In this document: positions 44,920-56,291 of the stretch, one piece after another
How positions within the stretch are numbered: the stretch's first letter is position 1
Layout: every line of letters starts with the position of its first letter
DNA from: Streptococcus infantis
GTDB taxonomy: Bacteria; Bacillota; Bacilli; Lactobacillales; Streptococcaceae
Length of the DNA: 64,000 nt
Direction: 5' to 3'
NCBI RefSeq assembly: GCF_021497965.1
Contig: NZ_CP046525.1
Coordinates: 1,178,001 to 1,242,000 of the forward strand
Notes under the pieces: model-generated
What the model saw: the letters and a program-made list of their open reading frames with translations, nothing else
Database searches by the model: none
Told to the model about the DNA's origin: nothing
Translations under genes and position numbers: made by a program

Positions 44920-45285
44920 TTACTCCAGCTCTATCCCCTTGTCACGAAGATTAGCCAGACACTCCTCATAGTAGGCATGGTCATGCTCACTATAGATAGG
45001 ACTTTTCAGCTTTTCCTCTGCTAAGTCTTGATAAGGAGGGCAGGTCTTGCCACGGTAGTTCTTGTCCAGCCACTCCGGACTTATCTTGTAGCCACGGCTA
45101 GTCATCTCATCCATGATCAAGCAATGATAGGCATAGAGACGATAGGGCGAGTGGGTAAAGACATAGTCCACTGTCGCATGCTTTCTGCCCCAGCCATTGC
45201 CACGAAGGGCGCAACACTCCCGATGTTGCCCCAAAAGCTGAGGACGGGGAAGTTGTGAAATCAAAGTCTCATGCCAAAGTCTCAT
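44920..45285 (-). CDS. Pyrimidine-dimer DNA glycosylase family protein (T4 endonuclease V-like)
   Basis: A 121-residue protein of the Pyr_excise/TIGR02328 family. The start MRLWHETLISQLPRPQLLGQ and HRECCAL parallel the T4 endonuclease V N-terminus, and E23 falls at the catalytic glutamate position of that enzyme. The family removes UV-made pyrimidine dimers, though activity of bacterial members of this short type is mostly untested. It overlaps the DUF1722 gene by 17 bases. Confidence 0.75.
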   Translation of the reverse strand: MRLWHETLISQLPRPQLLGQHRECCALRGNGWGRKHATVDYVFTHSPYRLYAYHCLIMDEMTSRGYKISPEWLDKNYRGKTCPPYQDLAEEKLKSPIYSEHDHAYYEECLANLRDKGIELE

Positions 45286-45673
45286 GGGAGTCTCCTTTCA
45301 GCAAGCTAGAATGTTGCAGATAGCTATTTGGGTAACGCTCAAGCAAATCTCTCGTCTTAGCAATCAAGTCTTGCTTGGAAGCTTGACCAAAGCGGTAGCG
45401 ATCCAGCAAGAGCATATAGTCTTTGCGTTCGTCAAGGCTGGCTTGCTTTTTAAAATAGCCCCAAATATGCTGAAAGGCGTTGCAAACTTGACCCCTGTGT
45501 TCTGGAATCTTGCAGGCATGGTCAATCATCTCTTGAACCTGACTCACCTCCACCACTTCTTGCTTGAGATACTGGCGAATGTCCTTGTAAATATTACTAG
45601 AATGGCTCAAAACAAGGTATTTATTTTCCGCCCAGAGTTGCTGACAAAGGGCACGTTGGTTGTTAGTTTCCAT
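45269..45673 (-). CDS. DUF1722 (YbgA) family protein
   Basis: A 134-residue protein with the YbgA pattern: LWAENKYLVLSHSSNIYKDI near the start, the HIWGYFKK block in the middle, and RYRFGQASKQDLIAKTRDLL then YPNSYLQ at the end. The domain is often fused to or paired with DNA photolyase-like or DUF523 proteins and has no proven activity. It overlaps the glycosylase gene, so the pair may act together in UV damage repair. Confidence 0.78.
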   Translation of the reverse strand: METNNQRALCQQLWAENKYLVLSHSSNIYKDIRQYLKQEVVEVSQVQEMIDHACKIPEHRGQVCNAFQHIWGYFKKQASLDERKDYMLLLDRYRFGQASKQDLIAKTRDLLERYPNSYLQHSSLLKGDSHETLA

Positions 45674-45754: not shown

Positions 45755-47356
45755 TCACCCTTTAAAGTTTTTCAAAAACTCTTTGAGCTCGGCATCAGCT
45801 TCTGGTGTGGTTCCGTGGAGTTGACCGAGCATTTCAAGTAGAGAAGCTGTTTGGCTTTCGATCGCTTTATTAGTCTCATTAATCTTGCTGACGATTTCTG
45901 TCAGTGGCTCGACTTCTTCTTCCTCAAAGGTGTCTACATAACGAGGGATATTGAGATTGTAGTCATTTTCGACGATTTCTTCATAGCTTGCAAGATGAGC
46001 AAACTTATCCATCTCCTCACGAGACTTGTAGGCTTCCAGAATCTTCTCGATATGAGCATCCGTCATGATATTCTGGTTTTTACCCTTATCAAACTCCTTA
46101 GAAGCATCGATAAAGTAAACATCACGATTGGTACGGTTCTTCTTGAGAATGATGACCGTGGTCGGAATGCTGGTATTAAAGAAGATATTGGCAGGTAGAC
46201 CGATAACCGTATCAATGGCCCCTTCTTCTAATAAGGCCTTACGAATGGTTCCTTCCGCATTACCACGGAAGAGAACACCATGGGGAAGGACGATAGCCAT
46301 GACCCCATTATCCTGCTTGAGGTGGTAATATCCATGCAATAGAAAGGCAAAGTCAGCCTTGGACTGAGGCGCCAGTTTCCCAAAAGGAGAGAAACGAGGA
46401 TCATTCAGGAAGCCAGAGCTTGCTGACCACTTGGCAGAGTATGGAGGGTTCATGAGAACCCCATCAAAGTTGGTCGGTTCTTGTGTCGGCCAGTCTTCGT
46501 CTAGTGTATCAGCATTGTGGAGAAATTGATTCTCAACTGGAACACCGTGTAGAATCATGTTCATCCGAGCTAGGTTATAGGTCGAGGTATTGAGTTCCTG
46601 ACCAAAGTAGACCACCGTCTGCGGTTTGTGAGAGTATTTCTTGGCATTGAGCAAGAGAGAGCCAGAACCCATAGTCGCATCATAGAGGGTAAAACCTTGC
46701 TGATCTTCACGACCCAAAAAGGCAATCTGAGTCATGAGTTTGGCAACAGGCTGAGGTGTATAAAACTCACCAGCTTTCTTACCTGAGTCGGTCGCAAATT
46801 GACCGATCAGATACTCATAGGCATCCCCAAGCATATCACCAGCATGACCAGCCACATCTAGCACAGCCAACTCTTTCATGACCGCTGCTACCGTTTGGTT
46901 TTGCTTTTGCGGAGTAGCCCCTAGCTTTTTAGAGTAGAGGTCGATATCTTCAAAGAGATTTTCATAGAGGTCGTCACTCTGCTCGATATCACGAAAACCT
47001 TGAGCCAAGTCTTCCAACTGGAAAGTCCCTTCATTGACACGCGCTACCAGAGCCGTAAAGGTCAGGTCGGGCTTGATGATATAGTTGAGCTCATCATTCA
47101 TGACAGAGACTAGATCCTCATGGGTATCCGCATCCTCGTAGTAGTTGCGATAGACCTCAAGGGCATCCTCAAGACTATCTGTCCCCTCTTCCATGGTCTC
47201 CGCCACGAAAAAGAGCATCTTGTCTGACAGATACTTATAAAAGACCATGCCCAAAAGATAGGACTTGTAGTCGTTGGCATCCATCTTAGAGCGGAGAACA
47301 TCCGCTGAGTTCCACAGAGCTTGGTAGAGCGACTGGGAAGTTTGTGTTGTTTCCAT
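45755..47356 (-). CDS. hsdM: Type I restriction-modification DNA methyltransferase subunit HsdM
   Basis: A 533-residue N6-adenine methyltransferase. The N-terminal HsdM helical domain (LWNSADVLRSKMDANDYKSY) is followed by the SAM-binding motif YDATMGSGSLLLN and the catalytic motif MNPPYSAKW. The ATG at 47356 is chosen over the frame start at 47380 because the extension lacks an RBS. It lies downstream of hsdS and a HAD phosphatase gene rather than beside hsdR. Confidence 0.96.
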   Translation of the reverse strand: METTQTSQSLYQALWNSADVLRSKMDANDYKSYLLGMVFYKYLSDKMLFFVAETMEEGTDSLEDALEVYRNYYEDADTHEDLVSVMNDELNYIIKPDLTFTALVARVNEGTFQLEDLAQGFRDIEQSDDLYENLFEDIDLYSKKLGATPQKQNQTVAAVMKELAVLDVAGHAGDMLGDAYEYLIGQFATDSGKKAGEFYTPQPVAKLMTQIAFLGREDQQGFTLYDATMGSGSLLLNAKKYSHKPQTVVYFGQELNTSTYNLARMNMILHGVPVENQFLHNADTLDEDWPTQEPTNFDGVLMNPPYSAKWSASSGFLNDPRFSPFGKLAPQSKADFAFLLHGYYHLKQDNGVMAIVLPHGVLFRGNAEGTIRKALLEEGAIDTVIGLPANIFFNTSIPTTVIILKKNRTNRDVYFIDASKEFDKGKNQNIMTDAHIEKILEAYKSREEMDKFAHLASYEEIVENDYNLNIPRYVDTFEEEEVEPLTEIVSKINETNKAIESQTASLLEMLGQLHGTTPEADAELKEFLKNFKG

Positions 47357-47398
47357 AATGTTTCTTTCTAATTTTTGCAATTATTTTTAAACAAGCAA

Positions 47399-47542: not shown

Positions 47543-48457
47543 TTACCTTAGTTTTGGATTTCTTTTTCGCTTTCTTGAGTGTGCTTCAAGTTTATTAGCA
47601 TTTTTCTTGTTTTCTAATAGTTCATTATAAGCTGTCTTTTTAATAATCGTTTTGATTAGATTATCAAGTTCTGTATTTTCTGAGTAGTCAGCTGGAACAA
47701 AATAATCAATACGATTATCCTGAGTCATTTTGTGAACTTTCTTTCTGTCATTGGTTTTTGGATTGAATACACCGATAGAGTAGCCACCTCTTGTTTTGAC
47801 TAGCTTCATACATGGAATATCTGTATCACTATCCCCTAAATAGACCATATTTCTAAAAGGAACTCGTAAATCACTTTCAGCAACAAAATCGTTCACTGCA
47901 TCGTCATTGACATCTAAAATACCTTTGGTAATTCTAAAAAGAAATTGAGTCTTGTTGGTGTAGTTAACAACTTGAGCAGGCCAGACCGCGACACCCTTTT
48001 CATCACAATAAAAGGAAGTCGCATAAATTTTCTTAAAAGCACCATTTTTAGCTATTGAAGTCCCCTCTATCATTTCTTTCAAACCAGATGAAATAATATA
48101 GTGCTCAACAATAACTCCGTTTTCTTCACCGTACTTTCGAATGCGTTCAAACCAGCTTTCGACTCCTGGAAAAAGTTCAACCACTGAACCAAACTTGGCT
48201 AACTCTGTTTTTGTAAATAGGACTTTCCCTTCAGATTCTGTTTTCATCGTAAACATATAGGCAAGGTTCTTGTCCATATTATTAGCCTTGGCAAAACCAT
48301 TGGATTTCTTCCAAAATTCACTGATTTCATACCCAAGCTTCTGTATAAATCCTTGGGCTTGCATATCATCAGGAGACAGGGTTTTATCAAAATCATAGCA
48401 AATTGCTACTACAGGTTTTTGTTCTTTCTTTAGCGTTTCTGATTTTACTTTTGACAT
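47543..48457 (-). CDS. HAD-superfamily phosphatase within the type I R-M locus
   Basis: A 304-residue protein with HAD motif I DFDKT (22-26, nucleophile D22, acid D24), an SSGLKEM region at the motif II position, and motif IV GDSDTDIPCM. The end is very basic (KKNANKLEAHSRKRKRNPKL). It starts 15 bases after hsdS with RBS AAAAGGAGTG, so it is translated within the same operon. HAD proteins of this type are known near type I systems, but their role is not established. Substrate unknown. Confidence 0.85.
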   Translation of the reverse strand: MSKVKSETLKKEQKPVVAICYDFDKTLSPDDMQAQGFIQKLGYEISEFWKKSNGFAKANNMDKNLAYMFTMKTESEGKVLFTKTELAKFGSVVELFPGVESWFERIRKYGEENGVIVEHYIISSGLKEMIEGTSIAKNGAFKKIYATSFYCDEKGVAVWPAQVVNYTNKTQFLFRITKGILDVNDDAVNDFVAESDLRVPFRNMVYLGDSDTDIPCMKLVKTRGGYSIGVFNPKTNDRKKVHKMTQDNRIDYFVPADYSENTELDNLIKTIIKKTAYNELLENKKNANKLEAHSRKRKRNPKLR

Positions 48458-48472
48458 TTTACTGCACTCCTT

Positions 48473-49726
48473 TTATATAAACATATCCTGCAATAGTTTC
48501 TTCTTCAGTGTTTCTAGCTGAGAAATTTTTTCTTGGTGAGAGTTGATGAGATTATCTAGGTTTGAAAAATAGGCTCCGATGGCTTGTTGTTCTTCTAAAC
48601 AAGGAGCAAAAAACCTAAAATCTTGCATATCTGCTTGGAATAGATGAGGGATACTACTACCCGATACCTTTAGATAAATTAATTTTTGAAATACAGAACT
48701 TGTCAAAACCTGATAGAAAAAATGAGAAGAGACTTTCTTAGACAACCGTACTAACATCATTGTTGAATTAATAGTCGCTTTCCCTTTCAAATTCGAAACC
48801 AAAGCAGGATTTCCAAGAGATCCATCTTTTGAAAAAATGATATCTCCGTTCTCTAACATAATATCTGGAGATTCATCATATCTCCACTGTGGTATATGGT
48901 CGACTTCTCCCCAATCAATTACTCCATTTTTTATATGTTTACCAGCAATCATACTTGGTCCAACTTCAGTATATTCTTCTTGTTTTAGACTTTTCCAACC
49001 TAATCTTCCTTTAATTATTGCACAGTCACCTAATCTTATATTCTCCCACTCACCTTCAAATCCATCCAAACGAATCTCAGGAACTGTCTGTCCTGCTTTG
49101 GGAAACATCTTGGAGAGCATAATCGCCTTAAGAGATTGATAGTTGGCTAGATTGTCTTTGTAGCTCGCCAGAAGGTCATCGAGAGTATGGAAAAGGGAAC
49201 CTATGGCGGATTGTTCATCATAGGATGTCATGCCAATCTTCCACTCTCCATATTCTTTCCCATTAACCCCAGGTTGACCTGACCGTTGAGAAGTGATTTC
49301 AATAAATCGCTTATACTTATCGGTAAGCGTCTGTTGAAAAACAAAATTCCCATCATATGAATCATGTAATCTTGCCCTAATTAAGAATCCAGCATAATAG
49401 ACTTCACCATCTGATTCTCTATAAAGATATGTTTTGCCAACACTTGCACCAGTACGTGCGAATAGGAGGTCATTCTTCTGCAATTTATAGTTTTCATAGT
49501 CCTCTTCAGTAAAATTGACATCTGGAGAACTAAGTTTATCAGTTAAAAATAATCTAGAAGAATCATCTATATCTGTAATCCTAAGATATAGATGAATACC
49601 ATCAAAATCCTTTGCAGAAGCATTTAAACCATATTCGATAGAATTTGATATTTCATCAAGTGTTTTATAGTTCCACTTGTCATTAAAATTCATAAATCTA
49701 ATTTTGGGAATTTTAAAATTATTCAT
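48473..49726 (-). CDS. hsdS: Type I restriction-modification specificity subunit HsdS
   Basis: A 417-residue DNA-recognition subunit. Two target-recognition domains (about 8-165 and 210-375) are each followed by a conserved helical spacer (EQSAIGSLFHTLDDLLASYK and EQQAIGAYFSNLDNLINSHQ). The first recognition domain is more AT-rich than the second, a sign of domain exchange. The ATG at 49726 overlaps the stop of the DUF4062 gene by eight bases, so HsdS is made by translational coupling to the cassette upstream. No second hsdS or inverted repeat for phase switching was seen. Confidence 0.93.
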   Translation of the reverse strand: MNNFKIPKIRFMNFNDKWNYKTLDEISNSIEYGLNASAKDFDGIHLYLRITDIDDSSRLFLTDKLSSPDVNFTEEDYENYKLQKNDLLFARTGASVGKTYLYRESDGEVYYAGFLIRARLHDSYDGNFVFQQTLTDKYKRFIEITSQRSGQPGVNGKEYGEWKIGMTSYDEQSAIGSLFHTLDDLLASYKDNLANYQSLKAIMLSKMFPKAGQTVPEIRLDGFEGEWENIRLGDCAIIKGRLGWKSLKQEEYTEVGPSMIAGKHIKNGVIDWGEVDHIPQWRYDESPDIMLENGDIIFSKDGSLGNPALVSNLKGKATINSTMMLVRLSKKVSSHFFYQVLTSSVFQKLIYLKVSGSSIPHLFQADMQDFRFFAPCLEEQQAIGAYFSNLDNLINSHQEKISQLETLKKKLLQDMFI

Positions 49727-52409
49727 TAGAATTTTCCATTCTATATTCATTTGCATACTTAATTACTAAATAGTGATTATCTAATCTTGCCTTCTCTATA
49801 ATATATTCTTTGTAATCACCATTTGAACTAATTTTATCTATATTTTTTACAATAACTAGCTTTATATCAGAGTTAGAATTATCCATCATATTCGATAGTT
49901 GATTTAATATAATCTGATTAACTATTTCATATTTAGTTAGTTTAATCAACAAATCTGTTGCATTCATCTTAATATTTCTAGAATAATGTTTGGTCATGTT
50001 TAAACAAAAATAAGTACAAAACATAATAAATTCACCATTTGGAGAGAATTTATCAAACTCGAAGATTGTTTGCAAAAATGATATTACTCTCTTAATTTCA
50101 AATATATTTTCAACAGATAGTTTGAGTATATCGTTAATAACAAGATTATAATTACCATCAAAAATACTTTTCATTACATTCAGTTGAATAGATAAAATAA
50201 TTGGATTTTCGTCAATTAAATCACTATGTACTAGTAATGTATTTTTACTTGATTGAAATACATCTGCTAGTTTTTCCCAATTATAGTGATGAGTCTGAGA
50301 AAAATAGATTTGAAATAAAAGGTTAAATGAAGAATATTTATCACTTAATATTTGATTATCTGAAATAATAGTCTGCTTACAAACGTCAATAAGTCTATTA
50401 AAAATTTCTTCAGATAATTTTACATTATCTATCTTAATAATATTAAATATTGTTTGGAAATTATTTACTGACGAAAACGTAAATATCCCATTTTCTCCTT
50501 GAGTTCTATTATAACTGATTATATCCTCAATATATTTATCAATATATTTTTCAGGAACAGTATTGTGTTCCAATTCAAGATTGATTTTCTGCATTAATAC
50601 AGAATTATTCTCTTCAATATATCTTAATAAATTGGTATTATCAATAGAAGAATTTCTTATATAATTTATCAAAGCATTACTATAACTTCCATATGCATCT
50701 AATTGATATTCATTATTTTGAAATATAAAATAATTTCCAACTTTTTTCTGAGTTTGGTTTGTTAGCCAACGATAGTCCATTCTACATAATAGAGAAAATG
50801 CGCTATCATAAAACCGAATTAGTTTTTTTTCAAAAATTATGTTTAAGATTACAATAGTATCTTCATAATTAAAACGTGTTATTACTTTTTTTAAAGCATC
50901 AAAAATTGGCTTTTCCAAATTCAACTCGCGATTATCTTGATTCAACCATTTTATGACCTCTCCTTTAAATTCCATAAGAAACGAAACAATTATAGAATCA
51001 TTTATATAATCTGAAAAATGATGTAACAAGTAACATTGAGAACGCAAACGATTATTAAAAAAATCAATATTACGAATCAATCCTATAGTATACTCAATCT
51101 CTTCTGAACTAATGGTTCCTATTATCTGTTTAGATTTAAGCAAGAAATTCGCTAGTTCTTTGTCCGAAGAAGTTACTGCTAAGACAAATAATTCTTTTTT
51201 AAATTCATAACCATCATACATTTCGGCAAGTGTTCTTAATAGCACTTTCATCAAATTTTTTGCATGTTGTATATGAGTAATAGAGGCATAACCTAATGAT
51301 AATACAAATGATTCCGATATCCATTGAAATAGTCCAATATTACATAGATTATAACTCTTTACAGATTCTGAATATAAATTATCTGCTTGAAATTTGTCTA
51401 TTTGCTCAAAAAACATTTTCTCTCTTCTATCTAACAATGGAAAGTAAAGAGGCTCTTTTGATTTATTTATATATTCCTGACCTGTATTTAAAATTGGCCA
51501 TCTATTTTCATAATTCCCTTTCTCATTTTGAACATTTCTTAAATCTATTGCTATATTGTTAACTATCCATTTTGGAATATTTACATCGTCAGTTGCTTTC
51601 ACTAAACTATCAGATAGAATGGATATTGCACCATTTAGATCACCCCTAAAATATAGTTTTAAAGCATTGAATCTTTGAGTTAGGATTTCTTTTAATTCCT
51701 CTTCAGTTTTTGAAACAAAATACTCCTCTAGAATATCAAAATTAATTTCTAAGAATTTATGTTTATTAAAAACAAATTGGAAAAACTTTATTATCTCCTG
51801 CTCAATGTTTGATATTTTATTTTCATCTTGTGATAAGTTCAACTGAAACACTTTGAAAAGATATTCACATAAAACTTTTGATTCTTTTGAAATATCAAGA
51901 ATTGTTGAAGAATACTTATCTGTATTGATGTCAGAAATTTTGTAATCAACAGTATCACTATTTTTATTACGATAATAAAAAATAATATCTCCAACAATTG
52001 ATTCAATTACTTTTTCAGGGATCTGATCAAACACGGGTATTTCTGAAAATTTTACTTTGGCATAAAGATCTTCCTGTAATTGAGTCTTTTCACTAGAATT
52101 TTCAGTACAAAAGAAATATAAACATTTTTTATTATGCTTCTTTGCAGTGTCAATTTCCTTCAAAACCGAAGGACTGATTCCATCTTCATTATCAATGATA
52201 ATCAAGCATACATCACAAGACTTTACATGATTTACATAAAATTCCTCCGATTTAACACTGCGACTTCCCTCTTCTTCATAACAAATTGAATTCATTAAAG
52301 GCGAATCATTAATGAGTTTAGAGAGTCTTTTACGCATCTTTCTATACTTCCCATCGCATTTAGAACTAATAAAAACTATAATCGGATCTTTTACCTTATT
52401 CGTACTCAT
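49719..52409 (-). CDS. DUF4062 (TIR-like) protein with long helical-repeat tail; putative anti-phage sensor
   Basis: An 896-residue soluble protein. Residues about 8-125 match DUF4062: a first strand with the PIIVFISSKCDG motif, then KSCDVCLIIIDNEDGISPSV and LKEIDTAKKHNKKCLYFF. E85 (SPSVLKEID) occupies the place of the catalytic glutamate of TIR domains. The remainder (about 160-896) is almost all helix, rich in Asn, Ile and Asp, like HEAT/ARM or TPR repeats, with no P-loop or nuclease motif. It starts 12 bases after the macro-domain gene with RBS AGGTGAG. The cassette is clearly more AT-rich than the flanking hsd genes, suggesting recent transfer. An anti-phage role is inferred from domain type and context. 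Confidence 0.75.
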   Translation of the reverse strand: MSTNKVKDPIIVFISSKCDGKYRKMRKRLSKLINDSPLMNSICYEEEGSRSVKSEEFYVNHVKSCDVCLIIIDNEDGISPSVLKEIDTAKKHNKKCLYFFCTENSSEKTQLQEDLYAKVKFSEIPVFDQIPEKVIESIVGDIIFYYRNKNSDTVDYKISDINTDKYSSTILDISKESKVLCEYLFKVFQLNLSQDENKISNIEQEIIKFFQFVFNKHKFLEINFDILEEYFVSKTEEELKEILTQRFNALKLYFRGDLNGAISILSDSLVKATDDVNIPKWIVNNIAIDLRNVQNEKGNYENRWPILNTGQEYINKSKEPLYFPLLDRREKMFFEQIDKFQADNLYSESVKSYNLCNIGLFQWISESFVLSLGYASITHIQHAKNLMKVLLRTLAEMYDGYEFKKELFVLAVTSSDKELANFLLKSKQIIGTISSEEIEYTIGLIRNIDFFNNRLRSQCYLLHHFSDYINDSIIVSFLMEFKGEVIKWLNQDNRELNLEKPIFDALKKVITRFNYEDTIVILNIIFEKKLIRFYDSAFSLLCRMDYRWLTNQTQKKVGNYFIFQNNEYQLDAYGSYSNALINYIRNSSIDNTNLLRYIEENNSVLMQKINLELEHNTVPEKYIDKYIEDIISYNRTQGENGIFTFSSVNNFQTIFNIIKIDNVKLSEEIFNRLIDVCKQTIISDNQILSDKYSSFNLLFQIYFSQTHHYNWEKLADVFQSSKNTLLVHSDLIDENPIILSIQLNVMKSIFDGNYNLVINDILKLSVENIFEIKRVISFLQTIFEFDKFSPNGEFIMFCTYFCLNMTKHYSRNIKMNATDLLIKLTKYEIVNQIILNQLSNMMDNSNSDIKLVIVKNIDKISSNGDYKEYIIEKARLDNHYLVIKYANEYRMENSNE

Positions 52410-52421
52410 CTCTCACCTAAA

Positions 52422-53273
52422 TTATAATATAGAAATTGTATCTCCATCTTCCTTTCGGATTACGATTTCGACATCAGATGTTAATTTTGTTTTACGTAGC
52501 ATGAAGTATTTAACCATAAATTCTAATTGTTGCTGATGATTATAATTTAGTTTTGACAAACCAGAACCAATCAAGGGTAGATATATTGGATTACCATTAG
52601 AATTCCTAAAACAATTATCAACTATTGCATTCAAAACTATAAGATAGTCTTGATCACTAGTTTTAGCATTCTTATTATTTTCTATAATAGATAATGCTAT
52701 AAAATGATATCTAACGTTACCAATATCCACAAAAGCAGTACTTCCGATAGGGTACCTTTTATAATTTCCTACTGATTTTCCACCTTGTTTTACATCATTA
52801 CTAATATTTACTGATGATATACTCTGTTCTTTCAAACTACGCTTAATCTTCTTATCGAGATCCAACTGTGATACTAAATTATTATCGTATAAAAAATTAA
52901 TAACTTGCCCATGAAGTGAATTGGCAGAAATAACTGAATCATCTATTTCGGTATCAAAACAACTATTTACAGGAACTATTAAATTAACTCTACTAGCGCC
53001 AATGTAATCTAGTATATTTCCATATGTTCCTGAAACTACAAACCTATTATATTTAAAATATATTACTCTCCTTTTGAAATAGCAATATAAAAATGCACAA
53101 ACGAAGCTTAAGGCATATAATATAATTAAAGTTTTTATAACTTTAATTATATGGCTTATTAGATTATTACTTTCATAAATATCACTGATATTTATAAAAG
53201 TCGCCAATAATGATAACAAGGATAAAAAACTAAAAAAATACTTGTACGATAATTTAAATGATTTTTTTATCAA
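52422..53273 (-). CDS. Two-helix membrane protein with macro-like domain (type II Thoeris ThsA-like)
   Basis: A 283-residue protein with membrane helices at about 12-29 and 44-66, then a cytosolic domain (about 74-283) with macro-domain hallmarks: VNLIVPVNSCFDTE with SANSLHGQV (first ligand loop) and IYLPLIGSGLSKL (second loop). The 2TM-macro layout is that of ThsA in type II Thoeris, where an ADP-ribose-type signal opens a membrane-damaging effector. The start is TTG at 53273; no ATG is available, and GGAGAAGGG lies upstream. The frame is the same as that of hsdR and begins eight codons after its stop. Very AT-rich. Confidence 0.78.
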   Translation of the reverse strand: MIKKSFKLSYKYFFSFLSLLSLLATFINISDIYESNNLISHIIKVIKTLIILYALSFVCAFLYCYFKRRVIYFKYNRFVVSGTYGNILDYIGASRVNLIVPVNSCFDTEIDDSVISANSLHGQVINFLYDNNLVSQLDLDKKIKRSLKEQSISSVNISNDVKQGGKSVGNYKRYPIGSTAFVDIGNVRYHFIALSIIENNKNAKTSDQDYLIVLNAIVDNCFRNSNGNPIYLPLIGSGLSKLNYNHQQQLEFMVKYFMLRKTKLTSDVEIVIRKEDGDTISIL

Positions 53274-53294: not shown

Positions 53295-56291
53295 CTATCT
53301 CCCCACTCTGAGTGGCTCAATCACTTCTTCTATCAGTTGGGTATAGGCTTCTTTGATTTGTTTTTTATAGAGGAGTGGGTTGAGGGCATCTGTCACCTCA
53401 ACTTTATAGTCCTTGTAGCGCTGACTCTTGGTCAGTTGGCTTTCTCCTAGTTGTTTTTTAGCACCCTTGCGGTAGTGATTGACATAGTAGCGGAGTTCAT
53501 CTTCACCCACATACCAGGTCTTACTAAAGTCTTGGATATGTTGCTGGATGACTGCTTCAATCATCTGGTCAAGGATATTGGCGATGGATTGACCTCTGTA
53601 GCGGTCAGGATTTGCCTGTACTTCTTGCCAAAGTTCTGAGATGATCTGCGCAAGATTTGGATTGGTCTTCTCCAGACTCTGGATATAAGTATCCACTGCT
53701 TCTCTGTCTTGTGCGCTGAGACTCTTTTCCGGACTCTGCTCTTGCTCGATCAGGCTTTGAATCAAGGTCAGGATATAGGCGTAGTTAATCTCATCGACTT
53801 GGATAGACTCTAGTTCGTAGTGGATATCAAAAGGTCCATCATCGTCACCGCTAGTCCCTTCTCCATCACGAGCTTTGAGTTCAGCAAGGATGTTTTTGTA
53901 GAGACCTAGATAGGCTTCGAGCAATTCATCATTTAAACCTGTTTCTTGGTAAATCTCAGCTTCATCATACTCCTTGTATACTCGGATAGAAGCTAGGTAC
54001 TTATCAAACCCTTGATAGGCCTTGGCGATTTTCCTCAACTGAGGTGTAGAGATTTGTTCCAGTTGGAGTCCTTCGACGGGATCATCAGTAATGAGATTTT
54101 GGAAGTCACTACAACTTCTCAAAAAGTTTCTCTTTTCTTCCTCCCAGCTAGGTGCTAGGACATCATTTTCTCCACCATTTGAGTAGAGCTTGAGGGCATT
54201 ATCCACTGCTTCCTTAAAGGCTATAGGCTTTTGGAAAGTGATGATATGCCCATAGGTCTTACTAAAATCAAAGATGCGATTAGTTCGACTAAAAGCTTGG
54301 ATCAAGTCCTGCGGTTGCATTGGTTTACGATCGATAAAGAGGGTCGATAAACAAGGGGCATCAAATCCAGTTAAGAGACGATTGACCACGATAACCAAGT
54401 CCAACTGCTCATTGCGATAGAGATACTTGTCTTGCTTACGGGCAAGGCGGTTATTGACATCGGTATTAAAGCCACGAAGATCCGCCATAGTAAAGTGAGT
54501 ATCAAACTCTTGGTTATAGTCCGCTAAGACCTGTTTCATGTGGTCTTGGTTGGCTCTTGAGTCTTCTTCATTTTCAGTGACAGAGTAGGTGATGGTAAAT
54601 TTCGGAAAGTCTGGAAGGACCATCTTGACTCTCTCAGATACCTCGACACGTGTCTGACCAGCCTTGACTCTTTTAAGAAGGTCATAGTAGGCTTGGGCTT
54701 GAGGGATGGACTTGACGGTTAGAATTGCATTGTAGGTATTGCCCACACCTTTTTGGAAGCCAAGTTGTTGGCGCGATTTATTGATAATGGCATCCAAGAC
54801 TTCCAGCATGTGCTCCTCATTCTCGTAGACGGTATCTGGTATTTCATTTTCATTCTGATCTGTGATGAGAGTATTGCGATAATCCACCTTAAAGCCTAAA
54901 ACAGCTCCATCATGGATGGCCTCCTTGACCGTATACTCATGGAGACGGTCACCATACTGTTGTTGGGTGGTTTGGGCTAGGTCTCCGACTTGCTGGCGTT
55001 TATTTTCCTTAAAGATAGGTGTCCCTGTAAATCCATACCAGAGGGACTGTGGGAAAAAGGCCTTAATATCTTTTTGTGTTTGTGGAGTCACGGCACGGTG
55101 GCATTCATCCACGACAAAGGCCACTCGGAGTCCCTTGATTTTGTCCGCATCTCGTTGGTAAAGACCTTGGTCAAACTTGCGCATCATGGTGGTGATTTTC
55201 TGGATGGTTGTCACCACCACACGCTTATCGTTACTGCCTAAGCGCTTAACCAAATCATGTGTATTGTCCGTCTCATCGATATCAATGACATCATTGGTCG
55301 CATACGAGAGGAAGGATGATGTGGTCTGTTGGTCCAAGTCCCTACGGTCAACGACAAAAATCGTCTTTTGAATAGATGGAATCTGAAGGAGATTCCTCGC
55401 TACCTTATAAGAAGTCAAGGTTTTCCCTGAACCTGTTGTATGCCAGACATAGCCTGATGCTTGCTGGCGAGAGGCTTCTTGCACTGCTTCGATGGCATGG
55501 ATCTGATAGGGGCGCAAGAGGATGAGAGATTTCTTGCTATCATCAATGACCGAATACTGCATGACCATCTGATGCGCACGAGGGATAGAAAGGACTTCGT
55601 GGGCAAAGCTAGTCAGGTTTGTCACAGGATGATTGTCCTTATCCACCCACTTGGTTAGAAATTGCTTGTTGAGTTTATTTTCACGAGCTGCTGCGATATA
55701 GCGAGTATCGACCTTGTTGGTCACAACAAACATCTGCAAGCTAGAGTAGATTCCACGGAATTTCCCTTCACGGTCATATTTTTTTATCTGATGAAAGGCA
55801 TCGATAAATGCCGCTTGGGAGCTCTTGAGCTCGATTTGAATCATGGGTAAGCCATTGATGAGGAGGGTAACATCCAGTCTACGGTCTTGGTCCAGAGGAT
55901 TTACTTTTTCTCGTTGGACTTGATTGACAACTTCGTAGCTAGACTTTCCTGCTGCGATATTGTCACGCCAGATGACTGACAAACGGATGGTGCCTAGACT
56001 TGCATCTTCTCTTTGTACCTCGACTTTGGCAATGCCATTTTCTCCGACCAACCACTTGGCAGCGTCATAGTAGCTAACAAAGTTGAGTTGGTTCTGAATC
56101 TGGCGTTTTTCCTGCTCAGTTAAGGGATGGTCTGCTAGCAGAGCAACGTTGTTTTGGGCTAGTTTCTCAAAGAAATTGTCCCATAGTTGTTCTTCTGTTT
56201 TTAGGTCTTCTCTATAAGTCCATTGGCTTTCACCAGTTACCAGCTGGTTAATCAGTTGTTTTTCTATTTCCAGTTCTGGTTTTACGTGCAT
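53295..56291 (-). CDS. hsdR: Type I restriction enzyme R subunit HsdR
   Basis: A 998-residue restriction and translocation subunit. The N-terminal nuclease has the PD-(D/E)xK pattern ([20 protein letters not shown], with D, E and K in place). A SF2 motor follows with TTGSGKT, the DECH box (FVVDECHRA), TGTP and the motif VI region QAFSRTNRI. The C-terminal domain binds the methylase core. First gene of a run that continues into the macro/DUF4062 cassette and hsdS. Confidence 0.96.

Follow-up and report, generated by a model that had tools for sequence, protein, structure and literature searches.

A ThsA-like gene and a DUF4062 gene form a conserved pair in Streptococcus and may make up a Thoeris-like defence relay

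We analysed a stretch of 64,000 nucleotides from Streptococcus infantis (assembly GCF_021497965.1, contig NZ_CP046525.1, positions 1,178,001 to 1,242,000 of the forward strand), which we call the window. Within a type I restriction-modification (R-M) operon, between hsdR and hsdS, the window has two adjacent genes (Table 1). One resembles thsA, the effector gene of type II Thoeris, and the other encodes a protein of 896 residues with a DUF4062 domain at its N-terminus. An earlier reading of the DNA without database searches (the sequence-only reading) had described this layout, as well as the AT-richness of the pair and its coupling to hsdS; the coordinates, the domain matches, and the base composition bear it out. 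The thsA-like gene lies 21 bases from hsdR and 12 bases from the DUF4062 gene. We took the ATG at 49726 as the start of hsdS, and this start overlaps the stop of the DUF4062 gene by 8 bases. (A longer open reading frame from 49756 is also present.) The G+C content is 0.263 for the thsA-like gene and 0.257 for the DUF4062 gene, versus 0.446 for hsdR, 0.457 for hsdM, and 0.405 for the window. Such low values (about 26% versus about 45% for hsdR and hsdM) are consistent with recent acquisition of both genes.

Table 1. Genes and features of the locus, in window positions.
Feature	Position	Strand	Basis
hsdR, restriction subunit (type I), flanking the pair upstream	53295..56291	-	Pfam HSDR_N, SWI2_SNF2, EcoR124_C
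thsA-like gene, 283 aa, TTG start; proposed membrane effector	52422..53273	-	PF20016; PADLOC ThsA; PDB ThsA chains; hydropathy
DUF4062 protein gene, 896 aa, ATG start; proposed sensor and signal-making NADase replacing ThsB	49719..52409	-	PF13271; homologs
DUF4062 (PF13271) match itself	52179..52376	-	Profile search (genome 1230179-1230376)
Glu85 codon, candidate catalytic glutamate	52155..52157	-	Alignment; E97 of KpSwz as analogue (PMC13174449)
hsdS, specificity subunit	48473..49726	-	Pfam Methylase_S; start read in sequence
hsdM	45755..47380	-	Pfam N6_Mtase, HsdM_N

The product of the thsA-like gene matches PF20016 (ThsA_Macro) at 129.7 bits, where the cut-off is 25, and no other Pfam family over its cut-off. 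The ThsA-type macro domain covers residues 84-273. The protein also matches ThsA in PADLOC (E = 1.2e-44) and solved ThsA chains in the PDB, at E values from 2.5e-19 to 7.7e-12 (9uuz at 2.5e-19, 8r66 at 3.1e-19, 8v6q, and 8v6s). Hydropathy gives two hydrophobic stretches near the N-terminus, a weak one around residues 12-32 and a clear one at 37-67. The protein thus has the architecture of a type II ThsA, with two putative transmembrane segments (the first of them weak) and a ThsA-type macro domain.

DUF4062 is described in a preprint as a TIR-like domain that cleaves NAD+ (an NADase) with a catalytic glutamate (PMC13174449). According to the same preprint, the DUF4062 protein KpSwz, of the Swarozyc system, is triggered by the phage portal, makes ADP-ribose, and depletes NAD+ directly; its conserved glutamate, E97, is required for activity and for defence. 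Our 896-residue protein only just passes the curated PF13271 cut-off of 24.7 bits, scoring 25.2 over its full length and 27.0 over residues 1-150, and it is the only match to this family in the window's genome at E <= 0.001. Glu85, which the sequence-only reading had placed at the catalytic position, is invariant in 16 aligned family members (counting the window's protein and leaving out L019) and is aligned with a glutamate of four other DUF4062-like proteins. It remains the candidate for that position, with catalysis proposed by analogy with E97 of KpSwz. The tail, residues 151-896 (about 750 residues), matches no Pfam family over its cut-off. Nor does it match the portal-binding winged-helix domain of the KpSwz type, in a sequence comparison that could miss a distant fold. 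PDB profile searches with the DUF4062 domain or with the whole protein gave weak, chance-like matches only and did not find KpSwz. In PADLOC-DB 2.0.0, the protein matches no model at E 0.1, and four of its relatives match none at E 0.01; a fifth, L006, has a weak match to Cas8f at 0.009.

We then asked how often the two genes occur together. Of 284 Streptococcus genomes, 3 encode a homolog of the DUF4062 protein (the window's, G172, and G207), and each of these has the macro gene immediately upstream, 10-12 bases away. (The 10-base gap, at locus L004, holds with an internal ATG; the longest open reading frame there overlaps the macro gene. G172 appears to be the same as L005, from S. pseudopneumoniae, and G207 likewise the same as L006, from Streptococcus sp. 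X13SY08.) The DUF4062 protein of G172 is 97% identical to the window's. In G207, the DUF4062 protein is 34% identical and the macro protein 31% identical, and the pair (L004) sits at another locus, where the open reading frames read in 5.7 kb around it include no R-M gene. This divergence and the separate site imply that the two genes were kept together through long divergence, in different sites. Judged by sequence, the pair is a real, conserved two-gene unit in Streptococcus.

The same genomes bear on whether the locus is decayed or has no role in defence. The pair is AT-rich and is limited to so few Streptococcus genomes, as decay might lead one to expect. But both frames are intact in all three, and the ratio of nonsynonymous to synonymous change (dN/dS) relative to S. 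pseudopneumoniae is 0.54 for thsA and 0.31 for the DUF4062 gene, from few changes. We give this explanation hardly any credence.

Most other ThsA_Macro genes in Streptococcus have a different partner. There are 11 matches to this family in 10 of the 284 genomes, including the 3 beside DUF4062. Six of the others (L021-L026) adjoin a gene of 166 codons that we read as thsB: by ThsB_TIR at 82.6 bits in L021, by a ThsB profile in L023 and L025, and by likeness in the rest. L031, on a short contig, is a truncated second copy with no visible ThsB. At L064:951-4364 (L030/L064, genome G185), a gene for a UG5-nitrilase-type reverse transcriptase (PADLOC, 3e-76) stands 9 bases before the gene for a small ThsA-like macro protein (236 residues; PF20016, 45.6 bits). 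A ThsA-type macro may also be the effector of this reverse-transcriptase defence system.

In a set of 388 Bacilli genomes, 12 have a ThsA_Macro match (11 of these pass the curated cut-off) and 3 have a member of the DUF4062 family. Each of the 3 also belongs to the ThsA_Macro group, with both genes in the same cluster. Two of these co-occurrences are from near relatives, so this amounts to two independent cases; in one of the three, G921, thsB stands between thsA and the DUF4062 gene.

If the window's ThsA responds to a nucleotide signal, what would make it? No TIR ThsB adjoins the thsA-like gene, whose partner matches PF13271 only. The ThsB profile has no match in the window's genome at E 1 (a search run with no control genome), and the same alignment, used as a local profile, does detect the ThsB of L023, which was outside the alignment. 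TIR_2, the one TIR family searched genome-wide, also has no match there, while 10 of 14 control genomes do match. (The window's genome is one contig with a completeness of 93%.) The DUF4062 protein is therefore the only candidate signal-maker that we found. And since our search for a TIR ThsB found none, we do not file the pair as Thoeris.

We lean towards viewing the pair as a two-gene abortive-infection relay similar to type II Thoeris, in which a large TIR-like DUF4062 NADase takes the place of the short TIR protein ThsB. The tail of the DUF4062 protein would detect a component of the phage and would oligomerise the TIR-like domain, which would cleave NAD+ with Glu85 and release an ADP-ribose-type molecule. 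This molecule would bind the macro domain of ThsA and cause it to oligomerise, the two membrane helices of ThsA would cluster and damage the membrane, and the infected cell would die before phage are released. That the tail senses a phage protein directly is proposed by analogy with KpSwz. The likeness to type II Thoeris that the sequence-only reading had proposed stands as far as the ThsA family, the conserved pairing, and the description of DUF4062 as TIR-like (PMC13174449) are concerned; it does not extend to the signal-maker, as neither ThsB nor TIR_2 was found.

The signal could also differ from that of Thoeris. At a position in the first beta strand, the DUF4062 family has an invariant phenylalanine (Phe13), whereas a tyrosine (Tyr8) is invariant across nine type II ThsB proteins, with the equivalence read by eye. 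NADase-active TIR domains are said to have phenylalanine or alanine usually at the position of that tyrosine (PMC11204291). Together these hint that the DUF4062 enzyme may release unmodified ADP-ribose or some other derivative, and not His-ADP-ribose.

Several observations weigh against the relay. First, the window's macro domain has diverged in its pocket. PMC11204291 lists nine residues of EcThsA that contact the ADP-ribose ligand, and only four of these are identical in the window's protein: L113, S175, S217, and G218, which correspond to L120, S195, S237, and G238. Three others are altered (T220 to Ser240, D83 to Asn86, and N114 to His121), and H259 and K262 are not kept, although chain 9uuz lacks both as well. 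(Two structural residues of EcThsA, N96 and D100, are kept as N103 and D107.) Second, a profile-profile comparison with hhalign found no relationship between the DUF4062 domain and ThsB (probability 0.3%). Third, in the other 9 Bacilli genomes with ThsA_Macro, a ThsB-like neighbour is present in 2 (L033 and L034); in the remaining 7, neither ThsB nor DUF4062 is among the neighbours inspected, and several of these macro domains are very divergent. Fourth, most loci sampled from the wider DUF4062 family show no macro partner. We placed 16 loci in a tree, from which L019 and L020 were left out. Four of these loci are linked to thsA, and the other 12 (L007-L018) have no macro gene in the flank (profile search, E 0.1).

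We also considered whether the altered pocket residues mark macro domains that are paired with DUF4062, as expected if the pocket diverged along with its partner. They do not. The histidine at the N114 position is also found in L042 and L043, whose partner is ThsB_TIR, and in the second macro of L088, whose partner is TIR_2; Asn86 is also found in L046, L047, and L065, whose macros have a ThsB-like or TIR partner.

The wider family was sampled in two ways. A scan of GTDB contigs gave 8 loci, two of which are the Streptococcus ones. Among genomes of the same order, the family occurs in 10 of 345, including the window's genome and G172, one weak match (L019), and one fragment with stops (L020). 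The 12 loci without a macro gene are not 12 independent cases, since L007-L009 and L017-L018 are near copies and L013 is at a contig end. (L012 is also short, at 753 residues.) Even so, DUF4062 proteins without thsA are the common form of the family, as judged from these gene neighbourhoods. In the tree, the four thsA-linked rows fall on one side of a weakly supported branch (62/51), and a strong split (100/99) separates 11 stand-alone rows from the four linked rows plus L012. Obligate pairing in the wider family is rejected. The sequence-only reading had proposed asking whether the two genes always occur together: they do in the three Streptococcus genomes with the DUF4062 gene, but not across the wider family. 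Searches with the window's DUF4062 protein in plasmids and phages, with those of L015 and L062 in plasmids, and with DUF4062 and the macro profile A1 in viral contigs gave no result. In L012, from an Oscillospiraceae metagenome-assembled genome, a gene for a PBECR4-type nuclease (L012:5259-5927, 90.9 bits) stops 55 bases short of the DUF4062 gene and is perhaps another partner.

Given the 12 loci without a macro gene, the DUF4062 domain can probably act without ThsA. This raises another explanation, that the window's DUF4062 protein is a self-sufficient NADase of the Swarozyc type that kills by depleting NAD+, as KpSwz does alone (PMC13174449). The macro protein would then be a dispensable accessory that reads, buffers, or amplifies ADP-ribose. 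But PMC11204291 describes ThsA-type macro proteins that carry two membrane helices as effectors and not as buffers, the pair has been kept in two loci at 31-35% identity, and we found no ThsB or TIR_2 in the genome that could use this ThsA. Overall, we consider the self-sufficient NADase unlikely, if well worth keeping in mind.

Further support for a link between DUF4062 and ThsA comes from outside Streptococcus. In G921 (L062), thsA, thsB (ThsB_TIR, 58.4 bits), and a gene for a 925-residue DUF4062 protein are consecutive on one strand, and this thsA has the canonical pocket residues. The 925-residue protein belongs to the window's DUF4062 family (profile A3, E = 1.1e-141), with scores under the cut-off for Pfam's DUF4062 (20.6 bits for the whole protein and 23.9 for the domain). 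It is placed as if it were one more ThsB. On a viral contig (L049/L088), there is a 332-residue DUF4062 protein (63.6 bits) with thsA, a ThsB-like gene, and a TIR_2 protein; further along are a second thsA and then another TIR_2 protein. Two viral contigs also have a small DUF2188 gene close to a ThsA-type macro gene (L043:4554-4778 at 98.1 bits and L088:4013-4264 at 58.7 bits).

In three cyanobacterial plasmids (from Nostoc sp. TCL26-01, Calothrix NIES-4105, and Nostoc edaphicum), DUF4062-like proteins of 481-485 residues adjoin ThsA_Macro. These are the records, among 162 that matched, in which one place covers at least 80% of the query. The macro matches are strong (191.6, 195.7, and 186.0 bits), while those to DUF4062 are near the cut-off (22.1, 25.3, and 20.3 bits), with one of the three over it. 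We saw no TIR family beside these pairs, among the part of the neighbours that was scanned with Pfam. The genes are convergent in two of the three plasmids and hence do not form an operon there. On the N. edaphicum plasmid pNe_3 (L097:47-5446), the one ThsA_Macro gene (186 bits) has a DUF4062-like gene on either side, with scores of 21.4 and 20.3 bits that fall short of the cut-off. Also, a Deinococcus protein annotated as TIR-containing (NZ_CP026517.1) matches the C-terminal half (residues 220-480) of the Nostoc DUF4062-like protein at 22% identity, which suggests that the same tail may be borne by both TIR and DUF4062 heads.

Neighbours were also read in plasmid and phage records. The window's macro protein matches 11 plasmid records; four were read, of which three are annotated with TIR neighbours and one lacks annotation. 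The second macro of L088 matches 79 records, and in the four that were read, there is DUF4062 in two, ThsB_TIR in one, and neither to be seen in one. For the L049 DUF4062 protein there are 9 matching records, with no macro within 4 kb in the two that were read. The one phage record has a ThsB-like neighbour (by eye).

More tentatively, and with our own judgement almost evenly divided, we propose that DUF4062 is a second family of signal-makers for ThsA effectors with two membrane helices and a macro domain. It would have been recruited recurrently, in parallel to TIR ThsB, and would have joined thsA at least three times, beside ThsB or replacing it. The tails differ in length, with about 750 residues for Streptococcus and for G921, some 250 for the viral contig, and some 380 for the cyanobacterial plasmids, and the ADP-ribose derivative may differ as well.

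Does the location within the R-M operon say anything about function? A match to hsdR was found in 8 of the 13 genomes searched, and we inspected three relatives besides the window. In the hsdR-hsdS interval, one of these (L085) has a reverse transcriptase gene and a DUF6261 gene, and the other two (L086 and L087) have AbiH. (Across L085-L087, the hsdR-hsdS and hsdS-hsdM intervals hold varied cargo: reverse transcriptase, DUF6261, AbiH, and a DUF4435/AAA protein.) Also, read by eye, each of the six Streptococcus thsA-thsB pairs has an hsdS-like gene on one side and an hsdR-like gene on the other. The interval from hsdR to hsdS serves as a cargo slot. Nesting in the R-M operon is ordinary, since such sites are used by thsA-thsB pairs and by defence genes of other kinds. 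The sequence-only reading was right about the position, but the position is not special, and we reject it as a sign of functional coupling.

A slot whose contents are swapped could bring together two unrelated defence genes by chance, as the cargo of the three relatives illustrates. However, the L004 pair has no R-M gene among the surrounding open reading frames, and this second locus already largely refutes chance sharing; the association also recurs in L062 and in the cyanobacterial plasmids. We consider a chance pairing highly unlikely.

How does the pair compare with known systems? Like type II Thoeris, it has two adjacent genes and a ThsA of the same family and architecture, and Thoeris in Streptococcus occupies the same kind of site. 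Unlike type II Thoeris, it has a large DUF4062 protein where ThsB would be, with Phe13 instead of the tyrosine, and a divergent macro domain with a histidine at the N114 position. With Swarozyc it shares the N-terminal DUF4062 domain, the conserved candidate catalytic glutamate, and a C-terminal extension that may sense phage. But KpSwz (326 residues in PDB chain 10wc) has a winged-helix auxiliary domain and works alone, from a single gene, whereas our protein has a far longer tail and, at every Streptococcus locus, thsA directly upstream. Finally, some Thoeris loci have multiple ThsB proteins, which most likely recognise different phage markers (discussion of PMC11204291). L062 and L088 resemble these loci, in that a DUF4062 gene is added to thsA-thsB like an extra sensor; they differ in that the extra sensor is a DUF4062 protein, which in the window is the only sensor found.

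In our literature search, which left most subscription papers outside, "DUF4062" and "macro domain" were not found together; this does not establish absence from print. "Thoeris" and "DUF4062" were found together only in the preprint PMC13174449. Its discussion notes that some DUF4062 genes are in operons with diverse enzymes and may use more complex mechanisms, and leaves the matter open. The pair described here is a small, concrete system in which to ask whether a DUF4062 enzyme can signal to an effector instead of only burning NAD+. If it can, then type II Thoeris would be a modular effector able to work with different signal-makers, and any search that requires a TIR ThsB would miss loci like this one, whose DUF4062 protein is also outside the models of PADLOC-DB.

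The R-M operon has other cargo as well. A HAD phosphatase gene (window 47543-48457) lies between hsdS and hsdM and matches the PADLOC candidate PDC-S34 (2.6e-159), which makes it a second cargo gene of the operon. Just past hsdM, at window 44920-45673, are two overlapping genes, one for a pyrimidine-dimer glycosylase (PF03013) and one for a DUF1722 protein (PF08349).

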